Shown: piece by piece, positions 59,544 through 62,231 of the stretch | Numbering within the stretch: the stretch's first letter is position 1 | How the letters are laid out: each line of letters begins with the position of its first letter | DNA from: Agrobacterium tumefaciens | GTDB taxonomy: Bacteria; Pseudomonadota; Alphaproteobacteria; Rhizobiales; Rhizobiaceae | Direction of reading: 5' to 3' | Assembly (NCBI GenBank): GCA_025560025.1 | Contig: CP048486.1 | Location: forward strand, 1,142,501 to 1,206,500 | DNA length: 64,000 nucleotides | Translations under genes and position numbers: made by a program | The notes under the pieces: model-generated | What the model was told of the DNA's origin: nothing | Databases searched by the model: none | The model's input: the letters and a program-made list of their open reading frames with translations, nothing else

Positions 59544-60290
59544 CTAGTGGCCCGGATGCAAGGCGTCATTGAGGTACATGCAGGTCAGCATGGTGAAGAC
59601 ATAGGCCTGAATAGCGGCCATCAGGAATTCCAGCGCCGTGATCGCGACCGTCATGAAAAGCGGTGCGATGGCGCCGATCATGCCGAGGGCATTGACGCTG
59701 GCCAGCGACACGACAAAACCGGCAAAGACCTTTAAGGTGATGTGACCGGCAAGCATGACGGCAAACAGGCGGACGGAGTGGCTGACCGGTCGCGACATAT
59801 AGGAGATGATTTCAATCGGCACGATGATGGGTGCGAGAATTGCCGGGATCCCGGCCGGCTTGAACAGCCCGAGAAAACGAATGCCGTGTTTGAAAAGCCC
59901 ATAAAGCGTGACGGTGCCGAACACCATCATGGCCAGACCGAATGTGACGATGATCTGACTGGTGACGGTGAAAGCGTAAGGAAACATGCCGATCATGTTC
60001 GCAAACAGAATGAACATGAAAAGCGAGAAGACGAAGGGGAAGAACCGCATTCCCTGCTCGCCGGCATTGTCACGCAGTGTCTTGGCGACGAACAGGTAAA
60101 GCATTTCAGCACTGGATTGCCACCGGCCGGGCACGAGGCGCGCCCTGCTCGTGGCCAGCAGCAGGAACGAACTCGCCAGGGTGACGGTGAGGAACATGTA
60201 TGCCGAGGCATTGGTGAAGCTCAGATCGATATCACCGATGGTAATTTCAACGAGAGGTTTGACTTCGAATTGCTCGATAGGGCCGGCCAT
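59544..60290 (-). CDS. Orphan F0F1 ATP synthase subunit a (AtpB paralogue)
   Basis: 248 residues from ATG 60290, after GAAGGA. A full subunit a: five to six membrane helices, the essential Arg in [20 protein letters not shown], and the C-terminal [15 protein letters not shown] typical of alphaproteobacterial AtpB. The rest of the F0 operon (atpI, atpE, atpF) is not here, so it is a standalone copy; in Rhizobiaceae the housekeeping atpB lies with atpE/atpF elsewhere. A 40-codon upstream ORF and a guanidine-II-like riboswitch precede it. Confidence 0.9.
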
Positions 60291-60300
60291 GGAAGGTCCT

Positions 60301-60423
60301 TCAGTAGATTGCGGCAATGACGGGGACATGCTGATGCGCAAGGTCGCGGCTCTGCCGGACGCAGGAAGGCCGCGCGTTTGATGGAGCATCAGAAATGAGG
60401 AGGGTGTTCGCTAGGTCGGTCAT
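60301..60423 (-). CDS. Possible 40-residue upstream ORF before atpB paralogue
   Basis: ATG 60423 opens 41 codons starting [20 protein letters not shown] and ending VIAAIY, with its TGA at 60301 inside the atpB ribosome-binding region (TGAAGGA). GGGATCAGG lies just before the ATG. It begins right after riboswitch A, so the RNA may act on this ORF and on atpB through coupling. No homology recognised; it could be non-functional. Confidence 0.35.
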
Positions 60424-60697
60424 CCTGATCCCAAGATTGAGAATCAGGGCCGTCCCCGGAACGCTTCAAGGCGCGGGTCGTCCCGCGCGAGCGCTTTCTA
60501 GCCAAATCGCCGGCGGGTGGCAATGGCTTTCGGGCAAATGCATCGGCGCGGGAAAGTCTGACCGCGTGGTTGGCGACAAAAATGAAGATCAAAGCCGATG
60601 ATATCAGCGTTTTCCAGCTTGCAGTGCGCTCGTGCGCACTCCGCATGGCCGTTTCCGAAATGTCTCGATAAAGCGTCTGCGGCGTTTTCCACATCAT
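60389..60697 (-). CDS. Small membrane ORF downstream of riboswitch B
   Basis: 102 codons from ATG 60697 ([20 protein letters not shown]), 16 bp after riboswitch hairpin B2, with GTGAG as a weak ribosome site. One membrane helix (~34-52, [19 protein letters not shown]), then an Arg/Ser-rich tail that is read through riboswitch A. No family recognised. The overlap with A suggests either a real small protein with a nested RNA or the remains of a gene whose 3' end was replaced. Confidence 0.4.
60446..60488 (-). promoter_or_regulatory. Guanidine-II (mini-ykkC)-like riboswitch A
   Basis: Read on the minus strand: hairpin 1 GCGCGGG-ACGA-CCCGCGC (60488-60471, 7 bp), a 13-nt linker, then hairpin 2 GGGG-ACGG-CCCT (60457-60446; three G-C pairs and a G-T). 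Two tandem hairpins with ACGR tetraloops closed by G-C pairs are the defining form of guanidine-II riboswitches. It lies upstream of the 40-codon ORF and the atpB paralogue. Confidence 0.8.
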
Positions 60698-60712
60698 GAA
60701 TCTCACGATTGT

Positions 60713-60756
60713 GGGGCCGTCCCCGTTTGGTGTTGCAGAGCGCGGGCCGTCCCGCG
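60713..60756 (-). promoter_or_regulatory. Guanidine-II (mini-ykkC)-like riboswitch B
   Basis: Minus strand: hairpin 1 CGCGGG-ACGG-CCCGCG (60756-60741), a 16-nt linker, hairpin 2 GGGG-ACGG-CCCC (60724-60713). It lies between the end of chaA and the small membrane ORF at 60697. Confidence 0.82.
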
Positions 60757-60769
60757 ATGCCGGACGTTT

Positions 60770-61930
60770 TCAGGCCGTAAACAGCAGCAGCCCAAAGATC
60801 GCGAACAGCATCAGGTGCAGAAGACCCTGTACCGCGGAGGTTCGCCTGCCCAGATAGGTGAGGGTCGTCAGTGCGATGGTCAGCGTAAACAGGATGGTTT
60901 CCGTGGACGAAATTCCAAAGATCACCGTTTTGCCGGAGAGGAGGCCGACTGTCAGAACTGCCGGCACGGTCAGCCCGACTGTCGAGACGAATGCACCGAG
61001 GCACAGGTTGATTGCCCTTTGTGTCTCGTTTTTCAGCGCAGCCTTGACGGCCGTGATCGATTCCGGCGTGAAGACGATGATCGCGATGAGCACGCCGCCA
61101 ACCGCCACGGGAGCTCCGGCCCGGGCGACGCCATAATCGATGACGACGGCAAGGTCATGCGCGAGCAGCACGATCGGTAACATCAACCCGATCAGCATTG
61201 CCGAATGAGCGATGTTTTTTCTGCGGGCCCCGCCCTCCACTGGAGCATGATCATCCGTCATGCCGCGAGCGATTGGTTCCGCCAGCCGGATCGACATCCG
61301 GCCCGGTTCGGGCTGCATGAAGTGGCTGCGGTAGCGCCCCATCTGAAGGGCAAGGAACCCGCCGTAGACAATCACGGTCACGAGCGAAACCACAACGGCC
61401 TGAAGAGCGGTAAAGGTGCCGTTGCCTGCCGGCAGCGTATTCGGCACCAGCAGCGCGACCCCGGCCAATACGACCGTCATTGCGATGAAGGAGACGGCCC
61501 CCGGCGCATTATATTCCTGTTCGCCATACCGTATCGCGCCCGCGAGCAGGCAGATACCCGTCACGAGGTTGAGAATGATCATCATCACCGCGAATATGGA
61601 ATCTCGTCCGATCGTCGGCGCCTCGTTGGGCCCGAGCATCACGGCGGCAATCAGGATCACCTCGATTGCAACGATCGAGAGGGTGAGAATGAGCGTTCCG
61701 TAAGGTTCGCCCAACTGATGGGCCAGTTCGTCAGCCTCTTTCACGACGCCGAAGGCCGCCATCAGGATTGTGATAAAGAGAACGAGAAAGCAGGAGATTG
61801 CAATGGCCGGCGTCATATCGGGCGAAAGCCACGACTTACCGGTGAATTGGAAAACCACGACGACCAGCCAGGCCACGATGAGTTTGGGCCAGGGGCCCCG
61901 GATGAATGATGGAGATTTTGTATCTGACAT
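60770..61930 (-). CDS. chaA: ChaA-family Ca2+(Na+,K+)/H+ antiporter
   Basis: 386 residues from ATG 61930, with GAGG nine bases before; an ATG at 61945 touches the riboswitch hairpin and lacks a ribosome site. About 11 membrane spans in the CaCA/CAX two-fold repeat, with acidic signature regions SIVAIEVILIAAVMLGPNEA and VFTPESITAVKAALKNETQR. Exchanges cations for protons across the inner membrane. Its leader carries riboswitch C, whose second hairpin ends only a few bases before the GAGG, well placed to control translation. Confidence 0.9.
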   Translation of the reverse strand: MSDTKSPSFIRGPWPKLIVAWLVVVVFQFTGKSWLSPDMTPAIAISCFLVLFITILMAAFGVVKEADELAHQLGEPYGTLILTLSIVAIEVILIAAVMLGPNEAPTIGRDSIFAVMMIILNLVTGICLLAGAIRYGEQEYNAPGAVSFIAMTVVLAGVALLVPNTLPAGNGTFTALQAVVVSLVTVIVYGGFLALQMGRYRSHFMQPEPGRMSIRLAEPIARGMTDDHAPVEGGARRKNIAHSAMLIGLMLPIVLLAHDLAVVIDYGVARAGAPVAVGGVLIAIIVFTPESITAVKAALKNETQRAINLCLGAFVSTVGLTVPAVLTVGLLSGKTVIFGISSTETILFTLTIALTTLTYLGRRTSAVQGLLHLMLFAIFGLLLFTA

Positions 61931-61947
61931 TGCAGGCGACCTCATCT

Positions 61948-61989
61948 GGGGTCGTCCCCGGCAATCTGTCGCATTCGGGTCGTCCCGAA
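61948..61989 (-). promoter_or_regulatory. Guanidine-II (mini-ykkC)-like riboswitch C
   Basis: Minus strand: hairpin 1 TTCGGG-ACGA-CCCGAA (61989-61974), a 14-nt linker, hairpin 2 GGGG-ACGA-CCCC (61959-61948). The chaA ribosome site follows within about ten bases. The outer stem of hairpin 1 differs from copies A and B (TTC/GAA against CGC/GCG) with pairing kept. Confidence 0.87.
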
Positions 61990-62103
61990 CGAAGCTTCGT
62001 CAAGCAGCTGGCTTCAGCGATACCATGACCGGGTTCTTGAAGGCAATGGCGCTTAAATAGCTGTCTTGAAGATAGGTGCGACCGATGATAGCACCCATTT
62101 GTG

Positions 62104-62145
62104 CAGGACGACCTGCGCCATCCGGATCGAGAGGGGACGGCCCCG
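62104..62145 (+). promoter_or_regulatory. Guanidine-II (mini-ykkC)-like riboswitch D
   Basis: Plus strand: hairpin 1 GCAGG-ACGA-CCTGC (62104-62117), a 16-nt linker, hairpin 2 GGGG-ACGG-CCCC (62134-62145). A strong ribosome site GAGGAGAG (62159-62166) follows, then ATG 62172. This is the only copy on the plus strand, matching the only plus-strand gene of the group. Confidence 0.87.
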
Positions 62146-62171: not shown

Positions 62172-62231
62172 ATGATCCCTTCCGATTACCCTGTGCAGAT
62201 TTGCCTTCTTTCTCCGGCGCGACCTTGTTGA
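62172..62231 (+). CDS. 19-residue leader ORF before mrpF
   Basis: ATG 62172, six bases after GAGGAGAG, opens MIPSDYPVQICLLSPARPC and stops at 62231, three bases before the GTG (62235) of the mrpF-like gene, which itself lacks a good ribosome site. Translation of mrpF is therefore probably coupled to this short ORF, which the riboswitch could gate. Confidence 0.5.
   Translation: MIPSDYPVQICLLSPARPC

Follow-up and report, generated by a model that had tools for sequence, protein, structure and literature searches.

Guanidine-II riboswitches precede paralogous subunits of ATP synthase and a cation antiporter in Agrobacterium tumefaciens and related Hyphomicrobiales

Introduction

Guanidine-II (mini-ykkC) riboswitches consist of paired hairpins with ACGR loops on the sense strand of 5' leaders and are reported to act on translation, and the small multidrug resistance (SMR) proteins found under guanidine riboswitches are guanidinium exporters that have been renamed Gdx (PMC12186494, in excerpt). 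In this gdx/sugE system, the elements stand before SMR exporters or guanidine-degrading enzymes. Here we analyse a 64-kb stretch of the Agrobacterium tumefaciens genome (GenBank GCA_025560025.1, contig CP048486.1, positions 1,142,501 to 1,206,500), hereafter the window, with positions counted from its first letter. Its leaders resemble those of gdx/sugE in their paired ACGR hairpins, sense strand and 5' position; unlike them, four elements lie within 1.7 kb, before paralogues of an ATP synthase subunit and an antiporter subunit and before a CaCA-family antiporter.

The fluoride riboswitch controls spare copies of fluoride-sensitive enzymes, a case in which an RNA that senses an inhibitor calls up a replacement protein; unlike there, the parts replaced here would be subunits within membrane complexes. 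With the Na+-I riboswitch, our locus shares the control of a rotary ATP synthase by a cation-sensing RNA, but the excerpted text on that system concerns Na+-driven ATP synthase complexes or components, whereas our locus has guanidinium and just one paralogous subunit a (PMC9971707). Li+ riboswitches before nhaA likewise sense a toxic monovalent cation and have a cation transporter as their output, but differ in RNA class, ligand and transporter family (PMC9646797, in excerpt). In the open-licence literature searched, which was accessible in part, no description was found of guanidine control over atpB-, chaA- or MrpF/PhaF-type genes; it is not mentioned either in the passages available from PMC12186494, PMC9971707, PMC7736828, PMC13064478, PMC7266159 and PMC12342949.

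Guanidine-II elements in the window

The Rfam model of the Guanidine-II family (RF01068, gathering cut-off 32 bits) matches at four sites in the window, three of them at or above the gathering cut-off with 38.9–40.3 bits:

60445..60489, minus strand: Guanidine-II element A, atpB2 leader (39.1 bits, E 3.5e-5; also in the strict hairpin scan)
60712..60758, minus strand: Guanidine-II element B, leader of a small open reading frame (ORF) (38.9 bits; also in the strict hairpin scan)
61947..61991, minus strand: Guanidine-II element C, leader of a chaA-like gene (40.3 bits, E 1.8e-5)
62100..62144, plus strand: Guanidine-II element D, mrpF2 leader (31.7 bits, E 0.0021, slightly under the gathering cut-off)

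By Rfam, these elements are Guanidine-II riboswitches. A strict scan for paired hairpins returned four pairs in the 64 kb, namely A–D and no others, against a chance expectation of 0.025 per 64 kb (mean of 40 first-order Markov simulations). All four consist of two ACGR-loop hairpins and a short linker. The loops of the first and second hairpin (P1 and P2) read ACGA and ACGG in A, ACGG in both hairpins of B, ACGA and ACGA in C, and ACGA and ACGG in D. The P2 of element A ends about 154 nt 5' of the atpB2 start codon, and the ATG of the small ORF is about 16 nt from element B. The counterpart of element D at locus L037 (genome G190) lies over the cut-off with 37.1 bits, and further counterparts are present at L110, L130 and L138.

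A preliminary description of this DNA, made from the letters alone, had reported four tandem pairs of ACGR-loop hairpins, three facing left with the left-facing genes and one facing right with the mrpF gene, and had assigned them to guanidine-II. Pairs and orientation were recovered at the coordinates above, and the assignment is borne out by covariance-model matches at all four sites, the one at element D slightly under the gathering cut-off. The linkers, given there as 13–16 nt, measure 12, 16, 12 and 14 nt (A to D) by the strict scan.

In the whole 5.68 Mb genome, one more element exceeds the threshold (36.4 bits, G000:C1:1296726); it precedes a 144-aa gene (L004 / L045:6730-7230) that is a PACE transporter by profile. 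Two weaker matches of 20.5 and 19.3 bits are probably noise. Neither a promoter scan (1 found, 1.0 expected) nor a terminator scan (5 found, 2.8 expected) was informative.

Genes behind the elements

Four genes stand behind the four elements:

59544..60290, minus strand: atpB2, F0 subunit a paralogue, 248 aa (MAGPIEQF...), PF00119 at 212.9 bits
60389..60706, minus strand: small membrane ORF, 105 aa as read, with a conserved core of about 60 aa (about 60523-60697) and one hydrophobic stretch
60770..61930, minus strand: ChaA-like CaCA-family cation/proton antiporter, 386 aa, PF01699 at 68 bits
62235..62528, plus strand: mrpF2, MrpF/PhaF paralogue (Pha-type K+/H+ antiporter subunit F), 97 aa, PF04066 at 60 bits

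AtpB2 scores 360.9 bits against the NCBIfam model of F0F1 subunit A (cut-off 225), and MrpF2 scores 106.7 bits against PRK06161, the K+/H+ antiporter subunit F (cut-off 93), so that the identities proposed earlier for both, an F0 subunit a paralogue and an MrpF-like protein, stand above profile cut-offs. AtpB2 is 64% identical to the housekeeping AtpB of the same genome (C1:391038), and the only c-subunit gene detected in the genome lies about 100 bases downstream of that housekeeping gene. Since a single c-subunit gene was found, AtpB2 comes without a c-ring of its own and a private F0 is unlikely. The idea that AtpB2 is the cell's sole subunit a was rejected, as the second copy beside the sole c-subunit gene had been found. 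Other MrpF copies in the genome are 55% (C1:168674) and 34% identical to MrpF2, for which an alternative start exists (ATG 62244). By homology, AtpB2 and MrpF2 are spare single subunits of complexes that are encoded elsewhere in the same genome. A possible leader ORF of 19 codons (62172..62231, plus strand) lies between element D and mrpF2 and ends shortly before the mrpF2 start; L037 has a similar one, ending in SARPC and a stop, and L130 has none at the equivalent place.

The third protein had been called a ChaA antiporter. Membership in the CaCA family holds (PF01699), but the protein is not a ChaA equivalog, as it scores 189.8 bits against PRK10599 (cut-off 505); it also remains under the cut-off for caca2 (177.5 against 317), and the nearest other copy in the genome is 32% identical. 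'ChaA-like CaCA antiporter' is the better label on these profile scores.

For the small membrane ORF, a conserved core was found (MMW...LYR.I....ALIF...AN..VRF.RA.AF.R, common to the window and L138, L037, L110 and L130), with the correction that the frame does not end there and continues through the atpB2 aptamer. In the window it extends through element A (60389-60523); it enters the atpB2 aptamer likewise in L138, L037 and L130, and stops before it in L110. Because the frame reads through the aptamer, translation of the small ORF could unfold it and thereby couple the two genes. At all these loci, the small ORF is accompanied by all other three genes. It has no match in Pfam or NCBIfam, and its L110 version has none in Pfam. 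BLAST matches to it in L065, L097, L101, L125 and L126 were set aside, as several overlap translated aptamer. In Devosia (L074, L112, L134, L135, L140, L153, L129), the space between the element and atpB2 holds a different membrane ORF, 56-59 aa in length; the version tested, that of L140, has no Pfam or NCBIfam match. Both small proteins may be accessory proteins.

The AtpB2 family and its leader

A degenerate DNA pattern for a 13-residue motif of AtpB2, which contains H171 and V178, was run against about 85,000 species genomes and gave 91 stretches. Six of these were dropped for want of an AtpB2 ORF (L087, L103, L120, L129, L139, L146), as was L071, a chance match of 35% in Streptomonospora; counts of leaders further omit stretches with fewer than 300 nt upstream or fewer than 200 aligned residues. 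AtpB2 occurs in about 80 records, and 76 of the 77 full-length ones besides the window belong to the Hyphomicrobiales (NCBI taxonomy), in genera that include Agrobacterium, Rhizobium, Ensifer, Shinella, Brucella, Pseudochrobactrum, Phyllobacterium, Aminobacter, Nitratireductor, Devosia, Afipia and Kaistia. The remaining record is labelled Bacillus subtilis, groups with Pseudochrobactrum and is probably mislabelled. A single branch with support 100/99 splits 78 AtpB2 from 30 housekeeping AtpB sequences in a tree built with no outgroup. Locus L138 (Agrobacterium genomosp. 13 CFBP 6927) has an identical AtpB2 and the same layout of four elements. In two Brucella records (L085, L118), atpB2 is broken into separate frames.

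Comparative synteny shows that AtpB2 with a Guanidine-II leader is kept across the Hyphomicrobiales. The leader is present at 72 of 75 readable AtpB2 loci, of which 69 were found by the hairpin scan within 450 nt and three by Rfam (L105 34.2, L109 35.4 and L126 32.0 bits); L077, L107 and L091 have no element upstream of AtpB2 by either method. Among housekeeping atpB leaders, none of 30 has an element (none of 31 with L071 included), a control made with the hairpin scan and not with Rfam. A protein search in the bacterial family found full-length AtpB2 in 32 of 294 genomes, 31 of them with an element directly upstream, although the leader of G071 scores only 25 bits. Base pairs 3-7 of P1 differ in sequence but stay paired in 58 or 59 of 61 AtpB2 leaders, a covariation that is only supportive because the scan itself demanded pairing.

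Residue changes in AtpB2

Compared with 30 housekeeping AtpB sequences, and in the numbering of the window's protein, AtpB2 has the changes F106A, I124F, V/I128T, proline at 158, F164Y, L171H, N178V, V224M, L227I and V234M, besides changes at some N-terminal positions; a few AtpB2 sequences depart at 106, 128, 164 and 234. S170, the essential arginine R174, H183, E221 and Q228 are kept in all 78 AtpB2. For H171 and V178, the counts in the 91 stretches follow from the search pattern itself, of which both residues are part. As a check independent of the pattern, both residues were present in 28 of 28 readable AtpB2 reached through riboswitch matches, a set that shares many genomes with the pattern set and in which L169 (truncated) and L235 (missed by the regular expression) are not counted.

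Two of the changes lie on either side of the essential arginine, on the same helix, and two others adjoin the conserved glutamine. R174, position 178 and Q228 presumably correspond to E. coli R210, N214 and Q252, as judged by our own alignment. In E. coli, R210 is next to the c-ring aspartate and Q252 is near (PMC5214741, in excerpt). The best matches of AtpB2 in the PDB are the subunits a of Paracoccus and yeast, both with asparagine at the position of 178.

Partner genes and the wider regulon

In a sample of 297 genomes of the family, a Guanidine-II match at E <= 0.01 was found in 160, and in 119 it was over the cut-off. A census with a relaxed scan of the stretches around the matches listed assigned 153 elements in 139 stretches to their nearest recognisable downstream gene. 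Among these matches, 69 elements precede SMR/Gdx genes, 34 AtpB2, 23 PACE, 16 DUF1989, five ChaA-like genes and two MrpF2, with four unclassified, three of which are not among the Rfam matches. The AtpB2 figure falls from 34 to 30 when two elements before the small ORF, one inside atpB2 (L195, which is chance) and one before an AtpB2 fragment (L243) are taken off. Representatives of the classes were checked by profile, namely SugE-type SMR (142.7 and 123.1 bits against a cut-off of 126, the second being slightly under), PACE and DUF1989/UAAP1. The fourth unclassified element, in L247 (3067-3111, minus strand, 33 bits), lies before an ammonium transporter gene (1346-2839, PF00909), which would suit the breakdown of guanidine to ammonia.

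In L243 (3077-3122), an AtpB2 fragment of 85 aa at 40% identity lies between the element and a Gdx gene. The leaders of eight Gdx genes run to about 150-245 nt. Both the fragment and these long leaders are possibly remnants of a lost atpB2.

The neighbourhood of AtpB2 was surveyed in 85 stretches with an AtpB-like ORF (the Streptomonospora match included), each 8 kb long and in many cases cut off at one end. SugE/Gdx lies directly downstream in 25 and a ChaA-like gene directly upstream in 14, three of these with MrpF2; the two never occur together, and 46 stretches have neither. In Brucella, Pseudaminobacter, Nitratireductor and others, Gdx carries its own Guanidine-II element right behind atpB2. 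A search by eye for recurrent neighbours in 40 AtpB2 stretches with neither Gdx nor a ChaA-like gene found only lineage-specific genes and frames that overlap atpB2. Away from AtpB2, a ChaA-like gene with an element was found in G096 (on another contig) and in G121 (with one AtpB only).

In 11 of 33 AtpB2 genomes (G236, G063, G075, G175, G157, G219, G070, G209, G154, G216, G270), no Guanidine-II element other than that of the AtpB2 leader was found at E <= 0.001 (about 130 candidates scored per genome); six of the 11 come from two genera (g75, g71). A search for guanidine-I found it in one of the 33, outside these 11; guanidine-III and -IV were not searched. The window's own genome has a single SMR gene, which is nearer to Qac/EmrE than to SugE (50.7 bits against a cut-off of 126) and has no Guanidine-II element near it. 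As the lone SMR gene is not SugE-like and stands without an element, the ChaA-like protein and PACE are the natural guanidinium-exporter candidates in this genome. Both are candidate new guanidinium exporters, and PACE may be a further family with this function.

Taken at the level of sequence, it is well supported that these genes form a guanidine regulon kept across species and are not a local accident. The 'guanidinium-responsive proton/cation module' of the preliminary description is likewise well supported as far as regulation goes, given the AtpB2 leaders (72/75) and the adjoining Gdx genes (25/85).

RNA mechanism

Guanidine-II has been described as a translational on-switch (PMC12186494 and PMC13064478, in excerpt). 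In the predicted minimum-energy fold of the element C leader (RNAfold), P2 is opened and the loop sequence CGACC pairs with GGTCG beside the start codon; the predicted ligand-free fold of the chaA-like leader would thus mask the ribosome-binding site. In short AtpB2 leaders (n=16), the longest complement to the P2 loop averages 4.31, against 3.43 in shuffled sequences (maximum 3.94). The test of the P2 loop against the Shine-Dalgarno (SD) region in 124 leaders of all classes gave a mean of 3.53 against 3.22 (maximum 3.41), a small effect. The long leaders have a third hairpin right behind P2, often of the form ATCTC...GAGAT, which in the window lies at about 60424-60447 (minus strand). A stem of at least five pairs starting within 8 nt of P2 is present in 41 of 50 long leaders, compared with a mean of 11.3 and a maximum of 15 in shuffled sequences.

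Proposed explanation and its rivals

Both AtpB2 and MrpF2 are paralogues of one subunit in a complex whose genes lie elsewhere, and this suggests that subunits are replaced. With slightly better than even confidence, we propose that guanidinium induces the replacement of single subunits in the F1Fo ATP synthase and the Pha/Mrp antiporter by guanidinium-tolerant versions. Rising guanidinium is predicted to bind the four leaders and to turn on translation of their genes. AtpB2 and MrpF2 would then assemble into the housekeeping ATP synthase and antiporter. Free guanidinium mimics the essential arginine's side chain and may disturb the normal interface of subunits a and c. The AtpB2 changes next to the arginine and the conserved glutamine lie where guanidinium would have to compete with that side chain, which is the basis for the idea of target replacement. 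The ChaA-like protein would export guanidinium against protons, as Gdx does in related species. That the swap is protective is a hypothesis with about even chances. Tentatively, and with somewhat more doubt than belief, we also consider an RNA-triggered stator swap, in which guanidinium jams the a/c interface and induces a resistant subunit a, joined in Agrobacterium by a resistant antiporter subunit F.

Several observations weigh against replacement of this kind. Inhibition of F0 or of the Pha antiporter by guanidinium is not reported in the open-licence literature searched, as far as the accessible parts go, PMC6063947 included, and the effect described for biguanides, a class of guanidine compounds, is inhibition of complex I at millimolar concentration, not of F0 (PMC9016406, in excerpt). 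The housekeeping subunit a of Paracoccus also has H171, so that of the two changes flanking the arginine only N178V looks unusual. Element D stays slightly below the Rfam cut-off (31.7 vs 32 bits), and MrpF2 with an element was seen in four lineages only. Two Pseudochrobactrum loci and one Shinella locus have no element at AtpB2, nor has G284. In G121 the ChaA-like gene has an element although that genome has a single AtpB, and the ChaA-like gene is hence not tied to AtpB2. As to the RNA, atpB2 leaders of the Rhizobium/Agrobacterium type are about 95-229 nt long, so simple SD masking is not obviously applicable, and in long AtpB2 leaders (n=50) the P2-loop complement of 4.16 does not differ significantly from shuffled sequences (3.97, maximum 4.24).

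An alternative that we consider unlikely, though one to be taken seriously, is that the genes offset what guanidinium export costs the cell, with AtpB2, the ChaA-like protein and MrpF2 retuning proton and cation flow and so steadying pH and membrane potential. According to PMC12186494 (in excerpt), Gdx brings in two protons for each guanidinium, and the frequent position of AtpB2 next to SugE/Gdx would agree with such a role. However, in the third of AtpB2 genomes where the sole element found stands at AtpB2, there is no tie to a co-controlled exporter, and a change of one subunit, as opposed to a change in how much complex is made, speaks for an altered site. Less probable still is that the module is a new exporter in which guanidinium is moved directly, either by AtpB2 together with the c-ring or by the ChaA-like protein. 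The mutual exclusion of Gdx and ChaA-like neighbours fits this, as does the lone SMR gene of the window's genome that is not SugE-like. For AtpB2, such transport is unlikely, as all its proton-path residues are kept and the c-ring site is small for a guanidinium ion. The ChaA-like protein may carry out such transport, which would be compatible with subunit replacement.

We assign a distinctly small probability to the elements sensing another guanidinium-like compound, such as methylguanidine, that the module would handle. In the 11 genomes with an element at AtpB2 as the only one found, that element controls no known guanidine gene, as this idea would have it; but loops and stems fit the Rfam family, and like elements precede SugE/Gdx and DUF1989 genes in the same bacterial family. 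The four copies inside 1.7 kb could also suggest a palindromic repeat that regulates nothing, to which we give next to no credence. Only five over- or near-threshold copies were found in the genome, and every one lies on the sense strand 5' of a gene; different genera share this position, which contradicts a mere repeat, and P1 stems that vary with pairing kept add to this. On copy number, simulation and conserved position together, chance or a palindromic repeat of no role was rejected.

Significance

Subunit replacement, if true, would be a new use of a riboswitch, one that alters the composition of the ATP synthase and goes beyond pumping the poison out; the stator swap, if true, would be the first known case of a riboswitch governing the exchange of a subunit in a rotary motor. 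AtpB2 is a natural variant of a much-studied proton path in which changes next to the essential arginine have become fixed, and the locus offers a concrete candidate for the target of guanidinium damage in the cell. To the guanidine response of these bacteria, it adds a second arm made of paralogous subunits of proton-coupled complexes.

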